A stretch of 64,000 nucleotides of DNA, taken from the NCBI RefSeq assembly GCF_964204645.1, contig NC_134029.1:21718450-21782449 (forward strand), read 5' to 3'. The notes beneath the pieces were generated by a model. The model saw nothing but the letters and a program-made list of their open reading frames with translations, did no database searches and was not told the DNA's origin. This document shows, one piece after another, positions 847 through 44,685 of the stretch. Each line of letters opens with the position of its first letter. The stretch's first letter is position 1. A program made the position numbers and the translations under genes. The stretch comes from Tubulanus polymorphus. Taxonomy: Eukaryota > Nemertea > Palaeonemertea > Tubulaniformes > Tubulanidae.

Positions 847-3800
847 CCCAAATCAAGAATTACCCATTTGTATGGATCAGTAAAATTCTAAAGACAAATA
901 GTACTTCAAAAGTTAACTTGATTATTTGAGGGAGCATTTGCTACTAAGATATAGTAGGTATGTACGCCCTCAATGAGGATAAAGAAATTTAGAGGACTAA
1001 TTTTTCAATTTATGTCATGAAGCTACTTATGCATTCACTGATTCGACACCAGGTCAACACGGCTACTCCGCGAATTAATTGTACAGGTAAAGCTAATTTC
1101 TGACTTGGGGCTGATAATACTAGATCAATAAAGACTTTAATAAAGTCAATAAATTGATATTATTGAATCGGATGTTACTCTTCGCTGTTTTCAACGTCAA
1201 CGATTGTTTTCAGAGGCCTCTGGATAAATCAGACACGATTTGTTATAGATAAGAACAAGTAACAAGTCATTCCACTCAATGATGATCGATCAAGATTTAT
1301 ATTTACCATATAAGAAGTATTTTATAACTAATTTACTGCGTAAAAGCGTGACCCGGAAATAAAATGAGCTAGTTCCTAAATTGATGGATAGATGGCGCCA
1401 CTGAAAAAGCCGATTCGATTGTTCCCTTTCAGCTACACTATTAACAAATCTAACCACTGAATTTAATTTGAGATAAAGTTATCAATGAATCAAGTGATCT
1501 TTATTTCATAGATAAAAAGTCATATCGTGTATTTCTATTCATTCAGACTTGATATCGTAAAAAATGTAAATACTATGATGAACGTATAAACGGGAGAGCC
1601 CAATAAAATGTAACCCATCAAAAAACCAGGAAGTCAACCTCACCATGTTCAAAACCTACGAATCCCACCGAAATAACGATAAATACTCAATACGGTATGT
1701 ATTGCATCGTGCTTTAGATGTTTCTGTATCCAAAGAATGTCAAGGCTTTGAAAATATTTGAACCGAATGATTCTCCAGCCCGATTTAGTAAGTGAGTAAA
1801 CCTGGTCTCCTCGCTCGTCCTATTTCATCATCAGATTCAGAGCCTCTAAAAGAAAATTCAGAATTCAGAGAAAATTCAAAGAGCGATGTCGATATTTTAT
1901 GATGCATGGATGCTGAGAATTGAGATGTAATACTGGTTTACTCCTCTACCTTGTTCGTCCAATGTAATCATCGATGACGATGATGGTGATCAAACAGTGG
2001 CTGACGATACACAGGCTACACTACCCTTGATTATATGACCTGACTATGAACGTGAGGGTCTAACTGCAGTTTGGGTCACCTATCCACTGGGTGGCGCTAG
2101 TGTTATTAAAGAATAGTGTTATGGTAAGGTTGGGTACATAACCATTAGGGACACCTAAACTGCAGTCATACCAAAAACGATACCGCTAGGATAGAAACCT
2201 GCACCAGTGATTGTTTCCCTTCAATGGCTCTCTTAATCAGTATTTTCACATCAGCCAATCTCTGATAATAAAATCTTACCACCTAAAGATTAGGTAACAC
2301 TATTTTAGGCGCATATGGCTTTCTGTGAATGAAATCAATATTCTCTTCCTATTCAAGTGTTTTAACAATATGCGTTAATGATTCTTGTTTACATTGTTAG
2401 TTCCATATGTACCAGCACATCCACTCTACTCTTGCAATCTTATTGCTAGGCCTACCATCTAAGTGGCACATGTTGCTTCCAATGTGTTGCCTCATCTAAA
2501 AACTATTTTGCTTTCAGAGATTCAGAAAATTGATAATCTATACACATCTAAACATGGTCTGAAACCTCTTCTTTTCTGTAAAACGTATGGACTGAAGATC
2601 TACTGATTATTGTCATTAGGGGCTTACTGTACGCCAAATTCTGATAGATGAGTAAATTTCCATAGTCACCTCGATGCAACATGATGATGTTTTCTTCAGC
2701 GATCGAATGAGACAAGAGAACGTGACAAATATGGAGTATATCACAATTCATTCTGGAAATTATTTCACCCGTTTAGCCAGTTATCGTTCTAGACGTCTTG
2801 GCCTATTATTTAAAAGTACATTATCAAGGCTAGATATAAAAAGAGACACTTAAAAAACCTAATATCTAAACATGGTCTAGATTAATGGAAGCCCTAATTT
2901 AGTCGAAATTAGCGAGTCTTTGAAACCTATGATAATTATTCTATGAATTGCTTAGGTTTGTTTTTACCGAGACTTATTTGAACAGGTCTCTTATGGTTTT
3001 TGCATGCAGGCGTTTAAAATGACATACCCTGATAAGGGATAGACCTATATTTCCTTCAAAAATGCCTTTCATGTCCACGGCGCGCTTATTGGTCTAATTT
3101 GATAAATAGTCTTATCTCCGTACATTTCTGACCTTATAATGCTATGCAAATAGGGTATCTTGATTATTATCGATGATCTCGTGAATTTACTAAGCCTTGA
3201 ATGCATGAAACAAAGTACAGCTATGTAGGCCTATACTTTCAAGAATTCATGAAGACCATAATCTCACAGACTGTAGTCATGAATTAGATAGGCCTACTAT
3301 CTACCAGTATATTTCATAATGATGTACGGAGTGTTATGTTTTTCTTGGTGACATATCATAAAAAATTTACTTTTTTTCATTTAAACTAATAATATAATGT
3401 GCATTTTGATTACCTATATAAAACTATGAACTGGATTTAGGCTTAGACGTAGAGTAAGCTCAACATGCTGGTTGTATTAGTAGCGGCCAATTGCTATTCC
3501 AGGCGCGAAGCCAGGCTGTATTGCTTGTATTCCAAAATAGAGTGCTTATTGAAAAAAGTAGTGCCATTCCCCCTCCCGAAAGTGCCCTTTTGAATTTCTG
3601 TCATATTCTGTAGATTAACGAAAAGATTTAGCATCTTTAGAGTAACAGTTTATTGCAATATTTTCATCTAAATGATGTTACACTGGAATACGGTGGAAAA
3701 TGGCTGCAGGATCTGTCGACTCCTTGTATTTTAGATTTTTTAGAATCATCAATTGCTTGCATTGTACAGATATGTAGTAAAGAATCTTATATAATATAAT

Positions 3801-29198: not shown

Positions 29199-30980
29199 TC
29201 AAATTGTTTGAATCAGTTGCAGTGGAAATTTGAATAAAAACCTTGAAATACCTTGCATGATATGTGATATTAAAAGCTAGTAATCTTATTATTGAATAAT
29301 CTAAGTCATTATTATAAGGCTAAAAATGATACCTTGTTTTTCCTGATCAGTCGGGTCATTTCATAAATCAACGAAATTTGTAATCAGTTAATTTCTATCG
29401 GCTGGGTCTGTTATGGTTAGCTTGATCATGATTTTAAAGTAATACCTTGGTAGATAGGTGGCTGGCCGGGTCAAATTCTAAAGAGTAAAAATGTAAATCA
29501 GATTGATTCATTAAATCTTACGCTTTCCAGAGTATTTGGCCAGGTTTATCTCTGGTTTTAGTGCGGGGAGCCATGGACTTGAGAGTCCATGGTTGTGGGC
29601 CATAGGCGTTTCTGTTTTAGAGTCTATGGTTGGACCATGGATGTATAAACTCTAGTTTATAGTTTATACGCCCATGGTTGGACTGTTTTTGAAATACAGT
29701 CCACGTGTTTGAGGAGCTTACGTTATAATTCCTCGAGCACAAACCTGGCATTTTGTATAATTGTTGTACACTGTATGAGAATAAATATGATTGAAATTTT
29801 TTATCGGTTTAGCTACTCTGAACTTTGTTAGTTCACCAGTCAGTGGTTTTTTGTTATCTTGCAATCCACCTCTTTTTTCAACCCAATATTCTCACCAACA
29901 TTGTGCGGAGGCGAGGATGTCCGGAAAACATGATAATCGAATATTGGCAATACAGCTTACCACTTCAACCCGGACACACTAACACTTGTTGACCGGTTAG
30001 AAGCGAGTGTTGAGCTGCCGAAAAGTAATTACGAAATTAGCAATCTTTTTGATTGTCACTGTAGCCATCAGGGGCGGATCCAGACCGTATTGCCCAATAC
30101 ATTGTTTGTACGGTCTAAAATTTAAGTGCCCTTCGGCAATATTTTGTGACGGCATATATATTTCACCACCCGCTAATTTGATATTTGCACTGATGATCGG
30201 TTTGATTTTTATATACAGAAGCAGAGTCCTGAATAGTTAACTTTGCCTTTAAAAGTGGCACCCAGTATCCTTCTTTTGGTGTTAACATTACATGATTAAT
30301 TACATGAGATTTGTGTTTCTCTTGTAAAAATCATTGTTTTTATTTTCTTCATGCTTTCGGTAAATGTAGCCGATGACCTCCTGATCGTCTCTAAAGTTCG
30401 AACCCAGTAATTACTGATACTGGTTCAGAGTGGCCCTGATGCTGAATAGAGGATGTACGGGGGTGTCCCGGGTTCAAACCCAGTAATTACTGATACTGAT
30501 TCGGAGTGATACTGATGCTGAATAGAGGATGTACAGGGGTATCCCGGGTTCAAACCCATCAATGACTCTGATTAAGAGTGGTCCTGATGGATAAAGGATG
30601 AACAGGGGTGTCCTGGGTTCGAACCCAGTAATTACTGATGCTGATTCAGAGTGGTTCTGATGCTGAATAGAGGATGTACGGGGGTGTCCCGGGTTCAAAC
30701 CCATCAATTGCTGTGATTCAGAGTGGTCCTGATGGATAAAAGATGAACAGGGGTGTCCCGCGTTCAAACCCATCAATTACTGTGATTCAGAGTGGTCGTG
30801 ATGGATAAAGGATGAACAGGGGTGTCCCAGGTTCGAACACAGTAATTACTGATACTGGTTCAGAGTGGTACTGATGCTGAATAGAGGATGTACAGGGGTG
30901 TCCTGGGTTCAAACCCAGTAATTACTGATACTGATTCAGAGTTGTCCTGATGTTGAATAAAGGATGTACAGGGGTGTCCA

Positions 30981-31160
30981 GACCGTACAGTGCTGCCGCT
31001 ATGCTCATCGTTAGCGGGATTTTCATACACTAACTAAAGTCAACTCTGGCAATCGATGTGCTGTCCAGTTATACTCCGTGACCTTGGCTTGCCAGAGTTG
31101 ACTAACGTTAGTGTATAAAAATCCCGCTAACGATGAGCGTAGAGACAGCACCGTACGGTA
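30981..31160. repeat. 180-bp hairpin, copy 1
   Basis: Inverted arms of about 70 bp run from GACCGTACAGTGCTG to CAGCACCGTACGGTA and include ATCGTTAGCGGGATTTT and CAACTCTGGCAA with their inverses. The loop is about 40 bases. It resembles a MITE nested inside the array. Confidence 0.85.
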
Positions 31161-31762
31161 AAAATGTTGATATCTTAACAAAAGAAATTACTGATAACTG
31201 ATTCAGAGCGGTACTGATGCTGAATAAGGGATGTACGGGGATGTCCCGGGTTTGAACCCAGTAATTACTAATACTGATTCAGAGTGGTCCTGATGGATAA
31301 AGGATGAACAGGGGTGTCCCGGGTTCGAACCCAGTAATTACTGATGCTGATTCAGAGTGGTTCTGATGCTGAATAGAGGATGTACGGGGGTGTCCCGGGT
31401 TCAAACCCAGTAATTACTGATACTGATTCAGAGTGGTTCTGATGCTGAATAGAGGAAGTACAGGGGTATCCCGGGTTCAAACCCATCAATTGCTGTGATT
31501 CAGAGTGGTCCTGATGGATAAAAGATGAACAGGGGTGTCCCGCGTTCAAACCCATCAATTGCTGTGATTCAGAGTGGTCGTGATGGATAAAGGATGAACA
31601 GGGGTGTCCCAGGTTCGAACACAGTAATTACTGATACTGGTTCAGAGTGGTACTGATGCTGAATAGAGGATGTACAGGGGTGTTCTGGGTTCAAACCCAG
31701 TAATTACTGATACTGATTCAGAGTTGTCCTGATGTTGAATAAAGGATGTACAGGGGTGTCCA

Positions 31763-31942
31763 GACCGTACAGTGCTGCCGCTATACTCATCGTTAGCGGG
31801 ATTTTCATACACTAACTAAAGTCAACTCTGGCAATCGACGTGCTGTCCAGTTATACTCCGTGACCTTAGCTTGCCAGAGTTGACTAACGTTAGTGTATAA
31901 AAATCCCGCTAACGATGAGCGTAGAGACAGCACCGTACGGTA
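31763..31942. repeat. 180-bp hairpin, copy 2
   Basis: Almost identical to the hairpin at 30981-31160, again followed by AAAAATGTTGATATCTTAAC. The same flanks show that it spread with neighbouring array units rather than by a fresh insertion. Confidence 0.85.
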
Positions 31943-32181
31943 AAAATGTTGATATCTTAACAAAAGAAATTACTGATAACTGATTCAGAGCGGTACTGAT
32001 GCTGAATAAGGGATGTACGGGGATGTCCCGGGTTCGAACCCAGTAATTACTTATACTGATTCAGAGTGGTCCTGATGCTGAATAGAGGATGTACAGGGGT
32101 GTCCTGGGTTCAAACCCAGTAATTACTGATACTGATTCAGAGTTGTCCTGATGTTGAATAAAGGATGTACAGGGGTGTCTA

Positions 32182-32361
32182 GACCGTACAGTGCTGCCGC
32201 TATGCTCATCGTTAGCGGGATTTTCATACACTAACTAAAGTCAACTCTGGCAATCGACGTGCTGTCCAGTTATACTCCGTGACCTTAGCTTGCCAGAGTT
32301 GACTAACGTTAGTGTATAAAAATCCCGCTAACGATGAGCGTAGAGACAGCACCGTACGGTA
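32182..32361. repeat. 180-bp hairpin, copy 3
   Basis: Third near-identical copy in copy A, with the same right flank as the other two. Confidence 0.85.
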
Positions 32362-32556
32362 AAAATGTTGATATCTTAACAAAAGAAATTACTGATAACT
32401 GATTCAGAGCGGTACTGATGCTGAATAAGGGATGTACGGGGATGTCCCGGGTTCGAACCCAGTAATTACTTATACTGATTCAGAGTGGTCCTGATGCTGA
32501 ATGGAGGATGTACGGGGGTGTCCCGGGTTCAAACCCAGTAATTACTGATACTGATA

Positions 32557-32873
32557 TCATAATGGTTCATCATCATCATGAGGAACCATTGTTGGGTGTT
32601 GATTACTGATACATGAATGATCTACCGATGGAATTATTGAATTCACAGCTTGTTTCACTAATTCTATATGTAATGATCTTTCCTCTAGTTGTTCAGTTCT
32701 ATCTCTCCTGACGCCAGCAACACGACCATCGTCAATTTGAGTTGAGGTTTTTTGACAATCAATTGCTCTATATTGACATCGGGATCTGTTCCAGCCGTAC
32801 AATTTGTCTTGTGATTTTCTAGTTTCTCTTCTGTTTCGCTACACTTTCCGCAGCAATAAAACACGCAGTCCAT
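32557..32873 (-). pseudogene. Frameshifted copy of a small cysteine-rich reading frame
   Basis: It starts with the same MDCVFYCCGKC as the intact 105-aa frame in copy B (39015-38698). An indel around the T-run near 32745-32755 shifts the frame after IVKK. The rest (GRVAGVRRDRTEQLEERSLH and onward) is present in another frame down to 32557. The product, if any, would be truncated. Confidence 0.55.
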
Positions 32874-33204
32874 TGCAATAAAATTGGTTCAATTCAATAA
32901 ATGTGTGAATACTCCACTACCTAGGACATTCTGCTCCCTCGAACTAACTGCTCCCTCATTTCACTTCAGTCTTTTAAAACTTGTGAACAGTAAATGAATA
33001 CTTATTTACAAATATTCTGTTGATTGTCTATTGTAGGTCATTGATTGTGTTCTGATGAAGATTTTCTGAGATACAACTCAGGATTTCTTTAGAATTAGAA
33101 GTTATACGTATTAAATTGAATGAGTTCAACATGCACAGAATGAATTGTTGTTATATCATGGTCAGTTTGAAAAACGGATGAAACATGAATTGAAAAGTCA
33201 ATCC

Positions 33205-33719: not shown

Positions 33720-36163
33720 TTATGCTCTACAACGTAACAATAACTTCATTTGTTCTTTGAAGTTTCTACTGTACACGTAATAAAATATGCCGTTTACAGC
33801 GGAATTCAGGGCTTGAAAAGTCTCATTCAGGAGTAATATCCACCAAGTGATAGACCATGGAAAATAAAGTTTAAGAACATTGTATAACATATCAGGGGTG
33901 ACTGACACCATGAATAAAGTTGATGCGACAAATACCATTCTGTGTGCCGTTACATCTTGTTTATTTTGTTTACTTGTTTCTGTACCGGTCAATTGTTTCC
34001 TATTCTTAGCGTGAATTCGTAGTTTAATTAACATGATGAAGTTAAACAGTGGTACAAGAGCGAATGGCAGGTATGTAGAGAAAATATTTTGTAATAAATA
34101 CGAATACCTGGGCGGATCGTGAACTGTTTTAGCACCGAGGACAGTGAGGCCGTATGAACATGTCTTTTTGACATACGCAACAACTCGGTCTTGTGTATGG
34201 GCGGCCATTCCCGCCAAAAATCAGCGTTTCGTCTATTTTTCTGTACTTCGACAAAATGTCATAGTACACCGCCAAAATGTGTTAGCGTAACGTCAAATTG
34301 TGTAATGCGGCTAAATAACACAGGAGGGCGACACTGTACGGACAGTATTTTGCGGTATTTTTCTCGCATTGCGATCATCTCAAGGTCGTTTTATTGAAAT
34401 AATTTTGCGAGTATCAAATCGACAAATCGTATCATATTCCCCAAACCCAATAAAATGATTTTATTGTTACTTTAGTTTGTTAATACTATAATATATAGTA
34501 ATAATGTACGGTAAAATAGCGGAAGTAAATACTTTGCCGTAAACCTATGGAAGCCCTGAGACGACATCTTGAGTTCATGAGTTCCGAGTTCATAACTTCC
34601 TGAGTTCTCAAGTTCATGAGTTCGTCTAATGAAAAAAGCCTGCGATACCGAAACGTCGAATGTAAACACGATGCTCTATCAAAGACCCGCGTCTCAGGCT
34701 CAGACGACACTGAATAACCAGCGATTAATGGTATGTTGAAGGGCGCCTCCGTTCCTCCTCTGGTAGGTAGCTCGGATTTTCTGTGCGCGGGCTAGAGAGA
34801 AGGGTGACTCCGATTAACCGGTGACTCTCGATGAATCTGCTCAGGTTTTAATGATGAAAAAGATAACAAACGCTCGTTATGAGAAATTTTTAAACATCTA
34901 TTTATTTTCTATAAACCATTAAGAAAGCTGATGTCTGATGATAGACTGGTTGCCGGTCGACTTCATATGACTGCCAGTGCAGAATTGGGCACAGTCAACC
35001 AGTCTTGGTTGATGCTGGACATCATTTTTTTAGTTAATTCATGACGTAATCGGATTTAACATCCTTATAATAGGATTCTTTATGTCGCATAATTTCATAG
35101 TGTTGTACATGCCCAAATAAACTCGAAATATCTTCACCAAGAATCTTAGTGTCTGATGTACCACAGTTGTACCACAGTTGGTTACACTAGGATCGTAGAG
35201 CGACGGACATCACTGGTGGAGACAACCACTGCCAGTGCTGGGTGAAGAAATATCATAAACTCTGGAAGTTATGAACTTGGGAACTCATGAACCCAAGGTG
35301 TCGTCTCAGGGCTTCCATATAGGGCCTCCATACCTGAGACGACATCTTGAGTTTATGAGTTCCGAGTTAACTAATAAAGTAATAATAAATTCATTTTATT
35401 GGGTTTAGGGAATATGATACGATTTGTCGATTTGATACTCGCAAAATTATTTCAATGAGACGACCTTGAGATGATCGCAAAGCGAGAAAAATACCGCAAA
35501 ATACTGTCCGTACAGTGTCGCCCCCTGTGTTATTTAGCCGCATTACACAATTTGACGTTACGCTTACACATTTTGGCGGTGTACTATGACATTTTGTCAA
35601 AGTACAGACAAATAGACGAAACGCTGATTTTTGGCGGGAATGGCCGCCCATACTTGTGTGCGATATGAAGATACTCCACTCCAAATGAGAATCCAAAAAG
35701 TTGAAAATGCATAACAATGTTTAAGATTCCAATATCTCTTAGCTTTCAGGGGAAAACAAATGTGAAATGCTCGGTCGAACGTCACTAGTAAGGTCAGACT
35801 GTTACGAATGTAAGATCCCCATTTTAATATGAGATTACCGGCTATATAAAGTTCAGGAGCTCCCAGATTACCGTGTAAATAGAATCCTGTTTTTCCATGG
35901 CGAATTAGTTTCAAAACCCAAGTAAGATGGTTATACATAACGGTTCCAATGCAACAGACAATATCAAAAACAGCCAGTAACAGTAAGATGAAATGCGAAG
36001 TCGCGGAACTATTCATTTTATGTAGTCGATATAACACAACTATGGTAACTGAGTTTGTAATGACGCCGAACCATCCGATCGGTCCTATCACAGTCGCTGC
36101 AACAAGGTTCCAAACTACGCGATCGTGAGTCAGGCATTTCTTCACGACTGTGGCGTTTAACAT
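33720..36163 (-). pseudogene. Single-exon class A GPCR split by a transposon
   Basis: A seven-helix receptor, most like the FMRFamide/peptide receptor-like class A group. The N-terminal half (36163-35659) starts MLNATVVKK with an N-glycosylation site, then TM1 (GVITNSVTIVVLYRL), TM2 with LLAVFD, TM3 ending FDRAFHICFPLKAK (a DRY variant) and TM4, up to YRTQ. The C-terminal half (34195-33720) starts DRVVAYVKKTC, then TM5, a basic loop, TM6 and TM7 with NSAVNGIFYYVYSRNFK in place of NPxxY. Without the insert and one 6-bp duplication the two parts total 981 nt, which is 326 codons plus TAA. No other stop or frameshift is visible, so the gene was intact until the insertion. The ligand is unknown. 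Confidence 0.88.
34196..35652. mobile_element. 1457-bp foldback transposon inside the GPCR
   Basis: Both ends start TATGGGCGGCCATTCCCGCC and its inverse. The inverted arms (about 34196-34485 and 35370-35652) match with only a handful of differences over about 290 bp. A second, inner inverted set (GAAGCCCTGAGACGACATC near 34550 and its inverse near 35310) carries the foldback further, and a hairpin with GACTGGTTGCCGGTCGACTT lies near 34940. The target duplication CTTGTG is at 34190-34195 and 35653-35658. No transposase frame is visible; open frames in the arms are mirror images of each other. It is probably non-autonomous, superfamily unassigned. Confidence 0.92.
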
Positions 36164-36725
36164 ATTGTGTGATGGTAAAGAGGTAATGGTTGATGCTGCG
36201 CACCCGTAGAACACGCCTTCAATTCTAGAATAGTAGTTTGCGTAGAACGAGCAAATTACATAGAAAAATACCGTGTCGTTCTTAATGATATACCACAGAT
36301 AGCAGTCGGGTGCGAGGAGGCAAATACACACCTTATATACACGAAAATATTTCAATAAGGCCATCGGTTATATAAAAATTCTTATAATATCATTTACGAA
36401 ATAAATCTTAACACCTTGCTTATCTCGACCCCACAAAAAATCTATTATCCGTTTCTTTATGCGTACATGTATACCTCAAAATTAAACTTACTTCGGCATT
36501 GGGTGTGAAAAATGATCGCTCTCAAGGATTATAAGTGATCTTAGGGGTGATCTTAAGTTCGGAATGATGGATAAGACAGTAGATTGAAACGGTTCTCTTT
36601 CGTTTTTACAACTGTGGGTATAGGGATCTCAGTGGAGAGATATAAGACTCAATGCATCAATTATTTGAAGATGAAATTAGGAAGAAAAAACTGCATCGTT
36701 TATGATATTGATATCATTCTTTGTA
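36164..36725. other. Probable 5' flank of the broken GPCR
   Basis: No gene was seen. The open frame continues upstream of the chosen ATG to 36364, but that part lacks receptor features. The promoter would lie here, right next to repeat copy B. Confidence 0.4.
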
Positions 36726-38247
36726 TCAAATTGTATGAATCAGTTGCAGTGGAAATTTGAATAAAAACCTTGAAATACCTTGCATGATATATTAAAAGCT
36801 AGTAATTTTATTATTGAATAATGTAAGTCATTATTATAAGGCTAAAAATGATACCTTGTTTTTCCTGATCAGTCGGGTCATTTCATAAATCAACGAAATT
36901 TGTAATCAGTTAATTTCTATCTGCTGGGTCTGTTATGGTTAGCTTGATCATGGTTTTAAAGTAATACCTTGGTAGATAGGTGGCTGGCCGGGTCAAATTT
37001 TAAAGAGTAAAAATGTAAATCAGATTGATTCATTAAATCTTACGCTTTCCAGAGTATTTGGCCAGGTTTATCTCTGGTTTTAGTGCGGGGAGCCATGGAC
37101 TTGAGAGTCCATGGTTGTGGGCCAAAGATGTTTCTGTTTTGAGTCTATGGTTGGACCATGGATGTATAAACTCTAGTTTATAGTTTATACGTCCATGGTT
37201 GGACTGTTTTTGAAATACAGTCCACGTGTTTGAGGAGCTTATACGTTATAATTCCTCGAGCACAAACCTGGCATTTTGTATAATTGTTGTACACTGTATG
37301 AGAATAAATATGATTGAAATTTTTTATCGGTTTAGCTACTCTGAACTTTGTTAGTTCACCAGTCAGTGGTTTTTTTTTGTTATCTTGCAATCCACCTCTT
37401 TTTTCAACCCAATATTCCCACCAACGCTGTGCGGAGACGAGGATGTCCGGAAAACATGATAATCGAATATTGGCAATACAGCTTACCACTTCAATCCGGA
37501 CACACTAACACTTGTTGACCGGTTAGAAGCGAGTGTTGAGCTGCTGAAGAGTAATTACGAAATTAGCAATCTTTTTGATTGTCACTATAGCCATCAGGGG
37601 CGGATCCAGACCGTATTACCCAATACATTGTTTGTACGGTCTAAAATTTAAGTGCCCTTCGGCAATATTTTGTGACGGCATATATATTTCACCACCCGCT
37701 AATTTGATATTTCCACTGATGACCGGTTTGATTTTTATATACAGAAGCAGAGTCCTGAATAGTTAACTTTGCCTTTAAAACTGGCACCCAGTATCCTTCT
37801 TTTGGTGTTAACATTACATGATTAATTACATAAGATTTGTGTTTCTCTTGTAAAAATCATTGTTTTTATTTTCTTCATGCTTTCGGTAAATGTAACCGAT
37901 GACCTCCTGGTCGTCTCTAAAGTTCGAACCCAGTAATTACTGATACTGGTTCGGAGTTGCCCTGATGCTGAATAGAGGATGTACGGGGGTGTCCTGGGTT
38001 CAAACCCAGTAATTACTGATACTGATTCGGAGTGATACTGATGCTGAATAGAGGATGTACAGGGGTATCCCGGGTTCAAACCCATCAATGACTGTGATTC
38101 AGAGTGGTCCTGATGGATAAAGGATGAACAGGGGTGTCCCGGGTTCGAACCCAGTAATTACTGATACTGGTTCAGAGTGGTACTGATGCTGAATAGAGGA
38201 GTTCAGAGTCTTCCTGATGCTGAATAAAGGAAGTACAGGGGTGTCCC

Positions 38248-38427
38248 GACCGTACAGTGCTGCCGCAATGCTCATCGTTAGCGGGATTTTCATACACTAA
38301 CTAAAGTCAACTCTGGCAATCGACGTGCTGTCCAGTTATACTCCGTGACCTTAGCTTGCCAGAGTTGACTAACGTTAGTGTATAAAAATCCCGCTAACGA
38401 TGAGCATAGAGGCAGCACCGTACGGTA
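38248..38427. repeat. 180-bp hairpin in copy B
   Basis: Same inverted arms as the three hairpins of copy A, with the same right-hand flank apart from a shorter A-run. Confidence 0.85.
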
Positions 38428-38697
38428 AAATGTTGATATCTTAACAAAAGAAATTACTGATAACTGATTCAGAGCGGTACTGATGCTGAATAAGGGATGT
38501 ACGGGGATGTCCCGGGTTCGAACCCAGTCATTACTGATACTGATTCAGAGTGGCCCTGATGCTGAATAAGGGATGTACGGGGATGTCCCGGGTTCGAACA
38601 CAGTAATTACTTATACTGATTCAGAGTGGTCCTGATGCTGAATGGAGGATGTACGGGGGTGTCCCGGGTTCAAACCCAGTAATTACTGATACTGATA

Positions 38698-39015
38698 TCA
38701 TAATGGTTCATCATGATGATGATGAACCATTGTTGGGTGTTGATTACTGATATATGAATGATCTACCGATGGAATTATTGAATTCACAGCTTGTTTCACT
38801 AATTCTATATGTAATGATCTTTCCTCTAGTTGTTCAGTTCTATCTCTCCTGACGCCAGCAACACGGCCATCGTCAATTTGAGTTGATATTTTTTTGACGA
38901 TAAATTGCTCTATATTGACATCGGGATCTGTTCCAGCCGTACAATTTGTCTTGTGATTTTCTAGTTTCTCTTCTGTTTCTCTACACTTTCCGCAGCAATA
39001 AAACACGCAGTCCAT
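38698..39015 (-). CDS. Small cysteine-rich reading frame in copy B, unrecognised
   Basis: An ATG-started frame of 105 codons. The N-terminus reads MDCVFYCCGKCRETEEKL and continues with H-x4-C, so C-x2-C...H-x4-C could form a small C2HC zinc-binding knuckle at residues 8-25. A charged middle follows (GVRRDRTEQLEERSLHIEL), then a His-rich tail next to a palindrome of ATGGTTCATCAT. It lies at the right end of the composite repeat and may be an exon or cargo of that element. The homologous frame in copy A is broken, so function is doubtful. No family was recognised. Confidence 0.35.
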   Translation of the reverse strand: MDCVFYCCGKCRETEEKLENHKTNCTAGTDPDVNIEQFIVKKISTQIDDGRVAGVRRDRTEQLEERSLHIELVKQAVNSIIPSVDHSYISNQHPTMVHHHHDEPL

Positions 39016-39343
39016 TGCAATAAAATTGGTTCAATTCAATAAATGTGTGGATACTCCACCACCTAGGACATTCTGCTCCCTCGAACTAACTGCTCCCTCA
39101 TTTCACTTCAGTCTTTTAAAACTTGTGAACAGTAAATGAATACTTATTTACATATATTATGGTTGTCTATTGTAGGTCATTGATTGTGTTCTGATGAAGA
39201 TTTTCTGAGATACAACTCAGGATTTCTTTAGAATTAGAAGTTATACGTATTAAATTGAATGAGCTCAACATGCACAGAATGAATTGTTGTTGTATCATGG
39301 TCAGTTTGAAAAACGGATGAAACATGAATTGAAAAGTCAATCC

Positions 39344-41152: not shown

Positions 41153-42121
41153 CTACTGGTTTAACGTGTCACCGCAACGAAACAGCGTTACAGCCTCCCG
41201 TCTAAAATCTGGAAAAATACATGCGTATATAATGAAATTACTCGCATAATTAAGATACGAAAATGAAATCGAAAAGTTATACCAGTGTGTCATTTCAGGT
41301 CTACTTCCGCCACCTACAAGTGTTAGGATTAATAGGGGAAATGTCAAAACTATATAGAAAAATGATACCAACACGAAATTAAAGTGGCAACGCCATTCTC
41401 TTTTTCTCTGCTTGCGTATCCCTATCTTAATTCTTCGTATGATCGCAATCGAAACAATCAGATTTCCACCAGAGATTGCCATCAACGGAATGACGAAGAG
41501 AAAGCTTAGTTTCAAAATAAGATAGAACCTTATCACATTTATACTCAGAAATTTCATGGTGTTCATGTCACAGTTATTTCTCTTATTTTGCGTGGCAATT
41601 ATATCAACAACGTAAAAAAGATCAATCGAAAAAATGAATACGAAACAAAACAAAATCAACAACCAACTTGTTCGGCGTTTTGTAGTGAATAAGCGCAACC
41701 TTATAATCGGCCAAATAATGGCGATACATCTTTCAGAGGCATAAAGCACGATTATCCAAGCCGAAAATAGTCTGAAAGTTATGCTTGAAAACATGATACA
41801 TTTACAAATAGCTGGATGCAAAATAAGAACGTCGAAATAGATAGTTCCCGATGTGGCGTAGAACAGGGAATACGGGAGCCAGTTCGTCAGACACGAGCAC
41901 AGCAAAGCAAGAGAATCAGCTACAGCGAGCGATATTAAATACTGGCTTAAATCTCTTGAAGTATGAGATATTCGGGGCCAGATGATCATCGAAATGATGT
42001 TGCCCAATAAACCGACCATGGATATGGGCCCGCAGACCCACGCAGATAGCATATCTAGTAGAATTTCGGTCCTAGACTTATGTTCACTCCCATCGGCTTC
42101 GGTCCAATTTCCGGTTATCAT
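41153..42121 (-). CDS. Class A (rhodopsin-like) GPCR, intact, single exon
   Basis: A plasma-membrane receptor of 322 aa, probably for a peptide, with an uninterrupted frame from ATG at 42121 to a stop at 41153. Residues 1-25 are extracellular with N-glycosylation site NWT. TM1 has GLLGNIISMIIW (GN pair), TM2 LAVADSLALL (the LAxAD motif), and a Cys before TM3 (HPAICKC) can pair with a Cys in the second outer loop (NNCDMN). TM3 ends SERCIAIIWPI, an ERC variant of DRY. TM5 includes FLFVIPLMAI and is followed by a basic loop (RRIKIGIRKQRKREW). TM7 reads YASNFIIYACIFPDFRREA, lacking the usual Pro of NPxxY. It differs clearly from the broken receptor upstream on the same strand, though both lack introns. 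FMRFamide or related peptide receptor is a guess. Confidence 0.88.
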   Translation of the reverse strand: MITGNWTEADGSEHKSRTEILLDMLSAWVCGPISMVGLLGNIISMIIWPRISHTSRDLSQYLISLAVADSLALLCSCLTNWLPYSLFYATSGTIYFDVLILHPAICKCIMFSSITFRLFSAWIIVLYASERCIAIIWPIIRLRLFTTKRRTSWLLILFCFVFIFSIDLFYVVDIIATQNKRNNCDMNTMKFLSINVIRFYLILKLSFLFVIPLMAISGGNLIVSIAIIRRIKIGIRKQRKREWRCHFNFVLVSFFYIVLTFPLLILTLVGGGSRPEMTHWYNFSISFSYLNYASNFIIYACIFPDFRREAVTLFRCGDTLNQ

Positions 42122-44685
42122 TTCGTTGAGATGTCAATGCTAATGTTTCTACGACTTATTTCCAACCAGCTAATTAATGCAAGCCGAATATCGACGAAAA
42201 ATTCAACGCAGTGAATTATAATCATTTATAAATATTGATGAAAATATGAGTTGCTTTTACTGTATGGATTTTGATATCGATCTAGATCAGAATTTTACAT
42301 TCATACATATATGAACATCTCTATTAGCCGATATAAGGGAAAATATATAAAGATTTTTTTTCATTCGAATCAACGTAGTACGTTTTTACTGAAAAACCTT
42401 TCAATGCGCCGCTAGCGTTCGCTGAATAATACTGGGTTCGACGTTTGACTAAATGCATCTTTTCTTCCGATTACTAAACCCGGGAAAAATTGTGCAGTAG
42501 GGTGTCGTCTATGTTTGTTGAGTGGATCTCTATGGGACAAAGATTGCGGAAACGTATTTGGAAATAAGAAGAGCTACAAAAATACTTTTGGATTCTGTTG
42601 GATCTGATGGAGAAACTAATTGACATTAAATAAAATGTATTTTGAAAATGGCTCAGAATTGAGTCGAAACGTTAAACTATCTCTTAGTTTTATCATCTTC
42701 CTGCGGGTTTATCAACTTATCAAAGTTGGTATCGAATTGAAGGATTAGCCTTATGCAGATATCAATCTGCAGTGAAAAACCACTTTATCCTAAATCAGTT
42801 CATTTCTAATCGTTCTGCTTATACCGGTTCGCGTCATTGTCTATCATTTATCAGTCCGTCAACTTTCGATCGATGTATGAAATTTAATCATGAAACTAAT
42901 TTAATTAGATTTCTCATTTTACTGATGGATTGAGTAAAATAAGAAGAATATCTTCGTGTACTTCAGGATACTTGTAATAAGATGAACCATATATGAAATC
43001 GTGAATTTATCCTCGTAACTGACCTACGCGCTCTTGCGACTGGGAGCGACACGATTGTTTCAGGAATCTGGGATTGGAACTCACAATGGTAATACGATGC
43101 GTGTTGAAATAATTTTTTTCTGAAGCATTCGTAAAATTACTTATCGGAAATTTTATCTCGTCCATTCGTATTCATATTGCTTCGACCATTAAGACCAGAA
43201 GTCATGACTACTAATAGCCTATCAATAATGGAATGGAACCGGTCAGTGGGGGTAGAAATCACAGAAAAGCAAGAAGCGAGTTTTTATGCCCACTTCTACC
43301 TTGTAATCGCCAGGAATTCGAAAATTCTGCATCGCAAGGCCAACCTGCGCCCAAATTTAGATTTTTTACGATGAAGAAGAATTCAATCACTTAAGTGAGA
43401 TCAGAAATTCCAATCGTAAGATCCGAAGAAATATTATGTAACTGACAATTCGCTACTAATCAACAGATTGCTAAGATATTCAAGAGATTGCTTAGTTCGT
43501 TCACCAAAAGAATTAAAACAAAAAATTTTGTACGTACGTTCTATGATTTTTCATTTATTCATATGATCCATAACAATAACCTTTATATTGTTGTCTTGCC
43601 GCAATTGATGACTAGAAACTATACAATAACAGATTATATCCAAACTATCTCTCGCTATGCACCTCAAACTACGACTCAGACACCCAGTTCCACAGCTGTG
43701 TGATCAATTTGATTACTGACAAAATTGATTGAAATAGATTCAGAAAATTGAAAATGCAAACTATTTATGGACTTTCTAACAGTGTATGGAACTGGCTCTG
43801 CAAATCAAAGAATTCTTAACGATCTGGCAATAAGACTTTGCAGTTCATTATATTGCGATTGTCAGTCTATAATAACGTTATTTAAGACATCAAGTATTTC
43901 ATGGCACTGTATTTATAATCATAGTATCCATAGAGACAAAAGCTTACGCAGCTCGAGAAAGGTAACAATTACATAATAAACCTTATTAAACATAAGGAAG
44001 CATCATTAATAACATTTACTACTAAATTTAGTAAGCCTTAATTATTCAGTTTCTATACAATAACATCAAATATTTACATATTCCAGTTTTCTGTTGAGCT
44101 TATATATACTTTTATACACACATGTACAGAGAAAGAGATCACATGAAATTTCGTGAAATTAAACACCTCGATGTATCCTGTTCCATTTAGATTTCTTTTT
44201 CATATTGATTCTAAATTTCAGATATTAACCATACACAATAATTTAAAAGATTTATAATCTCACGTAAGTACAAATATTTTTGTTCTACTTATCCACAGTT
44301 TTCACAGTTATCAAATAGTTCCTGTGGATGATCATGGTAAATGGAATAATATTCCAATTCTAAGTTTTCCAATGAAAAATTTCTTTTTACAAAATATTTT
44401 TTTCAGTTCAGTTCGAACATGGTCTTTTTTTGTATTTCCAAACACATAAACTGAAGAGTGAGATGATGCATTACATCTGACCGGTGTACGTCTAGCCACA
44501 TTTTGGCTTAAAAAACAACATTTATCTATAGTATATATTATAACGATAATGAATATTTCACATAGAGCCTCTATATCACAGTACCCTCCGCATAAAATGG
44601 TTTTTTCGCTGTATCCCATTTTCTACTGAGAAGACTCTTCGCGCATGAAGAGGAACCACTGGCAAAGAAATGCAGCTTTGCATTA
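42122..44685. other. Intergenic stretch, includes MTMR 3' UTR
   Basis: No gene was recognised. Near 42611 lies a short repeat (AGAAACTAATTGACATTAAA) shared with 33205. The right-hand part, next to the stop at 44686, should be the 3' UTR of the myotubularin gene; its polyadenylation site was not fixed. Confidence 0.4.

Follow-up and report, generated by a model that had tools for sequence, protein, structure and literature searches.

A foldback transposon resembling IS3EU/GingerRoot elements splits an Srw-like GPCR gene in Tubulanus polymorphus

Foldback (FB/Tu-type) elements are flanked by 9- or 8-bp duplications of their target sites. According to the available text of PMC10045372, every complete IS3EU family has TA..TA termini, with duplications that are usually of 6 bp, and GingerRoot elements, which belong to the same lineage, are alike. 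Fungal IS3EU elements are described in the available text of PMC12730594 with TAYGG..CCRTA ends, 6-bp duplications and TIRs of over 30 bp, and hAT6 elements also produce 6-bp duplications according to the same source. Here we report on a 64-kb stretch of Tubulanus polymorphus DNA (64,000 nucleotides, hereafter the window), in which an element with TATGG..CCATA termini interrupts the gene of an Srw-like GPCR. One explanation appears to us highly probable, namely a recent insertion of an IS3EU/GingerRoot-like element, with transposase supplied in trans, which would have split a single Srw-like GPCR and left a null allele.

The sequence and its ORF list place two collinear open frames on the minus strand within 33720-36367, separated by an insert of 1,457 bp (34196-35652). 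Exact copies of CTTGTG border this insert on both sides (34190-34195 and 35653-35658). The original prediction, that a foldback transposon had split one GPCR and duplicated these six bases, thus agrees with what we find: the halves are open and belong to the same gene, and the insert carries inverted arms. Its 20-base ends are identical when inverted, as had also been reported, the element opening with TATGGGCGGCCATTCCCGCC and closing with the exact reverse complement. The inverted arms are nevertheless far longer than stated. The left outer arm (34196-34474, plus strand) and the right one (35375-35652, minus strand) consist of the inverted-repeat pairs I1 and I2, that is 133 nt at 97% and 149 nt at 96% complementarity. 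Further inverted segments surround the core (pairs I3, I5 and I6; 34546-35319, with 34546-34623 paired with 35258-35319), and the inner arm contains short tandem repeats at 34570-34623, while a tandem-repeat search reported no array in the outer arms. When folded with DNA parameters (no shuffle control at that length), the whole element forms one long hairpin. The boundary observed at this site is the same as at other genomic sites, which fixes the ends of the element, and the longest frame inside it has 101 aa. Two direct repeats lie on either side of the interrupted gene (29199-33204 and 36726-39343); they are 97% alike over 1,481 and 818 bp, and contain a similar small ORF as well as arrays of a 76-bp satellite.

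The 5' half of the receptor coding sequence (35653-36163, minus strand; 170 residues in the open frame 35597-36367) starts at the ATG 36163-36161 and includes the right copy of the target-site duplication. In the paralogue searches, family matches begin near this Met, and the half was aligned with 24 paralogues. The 3' half (33720-34189, minus strand; open frame 33720-34220) ends with the stop 33722-33720. If TM and loop labels are assigned from the paralogue alignment and general GPCR knowledge, the 5' half would extend from TM1 into the beginning of extracellular loop 2 and the 3' half would hold the rest of this loop and TM5-TM7. The insertion point, between Q and D, would then lie in extracellular loop 2, past the TM4 stretch and before the loop cysteine. 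With CTTGTG counted once, the empty site reads as a single exon of 981 bases, a length divisible by three, as predicted; its 327 codons (stop included) are interrupted by neither an earlier stop nor a frameshift. A Pfam search matches 7TM_GPCR_Srw (PF10324) to the 3' half (E 7.9e-10) and also, with E 1.2e-10, to L002, the closest paralogue, which is intact. A phmmer search with 346 residues of the L002 frame returned no PDB relative at E 0.01.

Apart from the insert, no lesion is visible in the gene, in line with the original prediction. Among the 24 aligned paralogues (L048, whose frame is broken by stops, was excluded), 43 columns are invariant, and the interrupted gene differs at none of them. 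Its dN/dS against L002 is 0.17. Tajima relative-rate tests with five outgroups give chi2 values of 3.60, 0.08, 0.64, 0.09 and 2.69, all below 3.84; the two outgroups with 3.60 and 2.69 hint, without significance, that the interrupted gene changes faster.

Six-frame searches of the window's own genome (267.8 Mb, 77 contigs) were conducted with each half. A search of the same assembly for COX1 gave no match, and hence no mitochondrial clue. For the 5' half, the matches listed include 31 other loci (49-83% identity, E 2.3e-44 or better), and the 3' half retrieves largely the same set. A match at 100% is found at this locus only, for each half. The original prediction had named halves matching two different receptors as the result that would speak against it; instead, both have the same best relative, at C3:20264 kb. 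Foldback elements can mediate rearrangements, and one could imagine that halves of two different receptors were joined by such an event with the element left at the breakpoint. To this we assign a negligible probability: the flanking duplication is exact, the best relative is shared and the alignment is collinear across the junction, and dS to L002 is nearly equal by half (0.52 and 0.54).

The same relatives bear on the idea that the insert is a new intron (introner), spliced out to leave a functional receptor. On the coding strand, GT (GTATGG) and AG (CACAAG) are indeed present at the two ends. However, an excision of exactly 1,463 bases at the element ends can be placed in seven ways, none of which yields GT-AG, and the sole GT..AG pair at the very ends takes out 1,464 bases and would shift the frame. 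Moreover, one ORF covers both halves in order in all 25 paralogous loci fetched, so that no intron is needed there, and the point where the two half-matches meet coincides with the residue of the duplicated bases or is close to it. We therefore regard an introner as extremely unlikely, and return to the insertion of a transposon into a coding exon.

The interrupted receptor had been thought to belong to a small local cluster, which is not what we observe. A profile built from the 24 paralogues recovers just these two halves within the window, and the closest relatives on the same contig at no less than 49% identity are found near 23.15 Mb, at a distance of about 1.4 Mb; a weak match to the 3' half (33%) is located at C5:21880715, about 127 kb away. 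The window does contain a second GPCR (41153-42133, minus strand), which is open, matches 7tm_1 (E 8.8e-13) and falls outside the matches of the Srw-like family profile; judged by these matches, it is of another family. Elsewhere, on C3 (G000, C3:22342493-22418501), Srw-like GPCRs occur as mirror-image pairs with identical scores, which points to the inverted duplication of a large segment or to an effect of the assembly.

Under the explanation that we prefer, a non-autonomous transposon of the IS3EU/GingerRoot kind, mobilized by a transposase from elsewhere, would have landed recently within the exon that codes for one Srw-like GPCR. A staggered 6-bp cut, once filled in, would have produced the CTTGTG duplication at 34190-34195 and 35653-35658. 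On this haplotype the translation passes from ...RTQ into VWAAIPAKNQRFVYLSVL and then a stop (35600-35652, minus strand). The interrupted allele is very probably null, because the receptor would comprise about four transmembrane helices followed by 18 residues from the element, and the TM5-7 part would be severed from its start codon.

The 3' half lacks a start codon of its own, and the adjoining end of the element offers an outward-facing ATG in frame with it (34206-34208, minus strand; MAAHTQDRVV...). A two-part protein, with TM1-4 made from the native start and TM5-7 from the ATG of the element, could thus be imagined in place of a null allele, in which case the transposon would have made a split GPCR. 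We consider this most improbable. An outward ATGGCC is present at 36 of 36 ends in 18 copies of the element, and is therefore not specific to the interrupted GPCR.

The element belongs to a family whose terminal 31-mer occurs 51 times genome-wide at up to 3 mismatches, versus 0 times for the reversed control pattern. The whole 741-bp core is found at 98-100% identity at 13 loci including the window, and the other loci are older and diverged. We retained 19 two-ended copies, after exclusion of two short diverged variants with unequal or one-mismatch flanks (L054 and L057) and of three loci of a second family (L063-L065); L025, whose right end is missing, was left out of duplication and distance counts. 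An exact 6-bp duplication, like that of the window copy, flanks 17 of the 19; L030 shows one mismatch and L016 shares 4 bases only. This proportion, like the reversed control, speaks against a chance pattern. The second family has long inverted repeats and ends in TATGGGCGGCCATCCCCGCC, its 23-bp ends being nearly the same as those of the window element, with otherwise little similarity; its three two-ended copies (L063, L064 and L065) each have equal 6-bp flanks. At another locus (L027, 606-4442), one copy has its left end repeated together with the flank, giving three occurrences about 1.25 kb apart, all with GGCGTG as the flank.

Could the copy in the receptor gene be a repeat misplaced by the assembly? 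The family is repetitive, and its youngest copies are 98-100% alike. Nevertheless, we view such an artefact as very unlikely, as the 6-bp duplication is specific to this site, the boundaries of the element coincide exactly with those of the family, and the flanks are open, with a single 100% locus for each half. The insertion itself looks young, as originally predicted. Pairwise, the 12 full-length copies differ by 3 to 27 substitutions per ~1,457 bases; private substitutions number 0 in the window copy and 1 to 13 in each of the other eleven (indels uncounted in both cases), hence the apparent youth of the former. If neutral change is assumed to run at a few 1e-9 per site per year, 0 changes in 1,457 bases would place the insertion at less than roughly a million years ago. 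The lack of private substitutions would also fit if the window copy had been the donor of other copies.

Insertions of this element favour 6-bp targets centred on CG, in a post hoc test on one family. In a set of 18 copies, including the window copy and leaving out L016, CG is at the centre of the duplication in 8 cases, whereas it makes up 4.1% of the dinucleotides of the same flanks (binomial P 2.4e-7); for CG, CA and TG taken together, the count is 12 cases, versus an expected 16.9% (P 3.7e-6). Such a preference is not mentioned in the available text of PMC10045372 or PMC12730594.

Empty sites were reconstructed for the 19 copies, and three besides that of the window lie in open frames of more than 240 codons. 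The L023 copy sits in a phage-integrase-like ORF, and the L030 copy in a DDE_Tnp_4 transposase ORF. The L015 copy splits a different, unrelated rhodopsin-like GPCR (PF00001, E 8.9e-13). As to the remaining copies, L020 gives a joined frame of 103 codons made of repetitive sequence, and in the other 14 copies this frame does not exceed 85 codons. The GPCR at L015 is split close to its N-terminus (3-599 and 1848-2201, minus strand) and adjoins a run of Srw-like GPCRs (C1:9.762-9.772 Mb). We do not claim an enrichment of insertions in GPCR genes, as the window copy was chosen for its location, which leaves one of the 18 others.

Which superfamily the element belongs to was considered from its ends and from the transposases of the genome. 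TA..TA is found at the start and end of 18 of the 19 two-ended copies (L024 starts with TG). In 18 of them the longest stop-free frame does not exceed 144 aa, and four of the longest of these frames have no Pfam match. The nineteenth and longest (L028, 5.66 kb) holds a nested LINE, and was rejected as an autonomous partner on this account. The 19 two-ended copies revealed no transposase, and neither did the scanned frames of nine loci fetched as one-ended (L050-L058) and of seven loci with related ends (L059-L065); an autonomous partner did not emerge from them. The ORFs of these last two groups include reverse-transcriptase (L052, L056), immunoglobulin-like (L055) and zinc-finger-like (L053) ones, others being without a Pfam match. 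AT-rich ORFs near element ends at L053 (1879-2585, plus strand) and L059 (676-1248, minus strand) share a GIQC.LDN motif, and those of L053 have weak zinc-finger matches. IS3EU/GingerRoot elements encode an IS3/IS481-like DDE transposase or are mobilized by one; genome searches with PF13683 and PF00665 (best 150 candidates scored) tied no transposase to element ends. When 223 integrase-hit positions (larger contigs, co-located hits merged) were compared with 94 listed ends, two were within 12 kb of one: the match at L066, discarded as a Gypsy-like retrotransposon by eye, and another on C2, in a 1161-aa frame.

Polinton/Maverick elements have AG..TC ends, unlike the TA..TA found here, and carry DNA polymerase B/integrase genes. 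Matches to Polinton-like DNA polymerase are numerous in this genome (111 among the matches listed), but a Polinton origin is not supported through these DNA polymerase B matches. The longest frame in the window element has just 101 aa. Of the facing pairs that 101 listed ends form within 60 kb (one end search listing part of its 125 matches), the longest, the LINE-bearing L028, spans only 5.6 kb. A short Polinton-derived element, or a member of another superfamily with 6-bp duplications such as hAT6 (PMC12730594, available text), is unlikely but deserves some weight, as no transposase is linked to the element ends; TA..TA termini (TAYGG..CCRTA in fungi) together with 6-bp duplications are, by contrast, what the available text of PMC10045372 and PMC12730594 gives for IS3EU. 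Thus, the window element is very likely a non-autonomous member of the IS3EU/GingerRoot group.

The event is an ordinary gene disruption, of a known kind. It provides a clean and probably recent case of likely receptor loss through transposon insertion, in a large receptor family of about thirty similar genes, and would gain in interest if the insertion were shown to be polymorphic. The element family, for its part, forms a well-bounded set of animal IS3EU-like insertions with a CG-centred target preference.

When compared with known systems, the interrupted gene resembles 7TM_GPCR_Srw (PF10324) in the significant matches of its 3' half and of L002 and in the seven-helix layout suggested by the alignment, although the 5' half alone yields no Pfam match at the cut-off of E 0.001. 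The element shares with Foldback (FB/Tu-type) transposons a sequence that is in large part inverted repeat, forms a hairpin and carries short tandem repeats in the inner arm, but differs from them by its 6-bp duplications and by outer arms for which no tandem array was reported. Conversely, its foldback architecture, with ~280-bp outer arms as well as inner ones, and the lack of a transposase in the 19 two-ended copies set it apart from IS3EU/GingerRoot, with which it has in common its TATGG..CCATA termini, its 6-bp duplications and its long TIRs: the outer arms, of ~279 bp at 96-97% complementarity, are well above the 30 bp given for fungal IS3EU elements (PMC10045372 and PMC12730594, available text).
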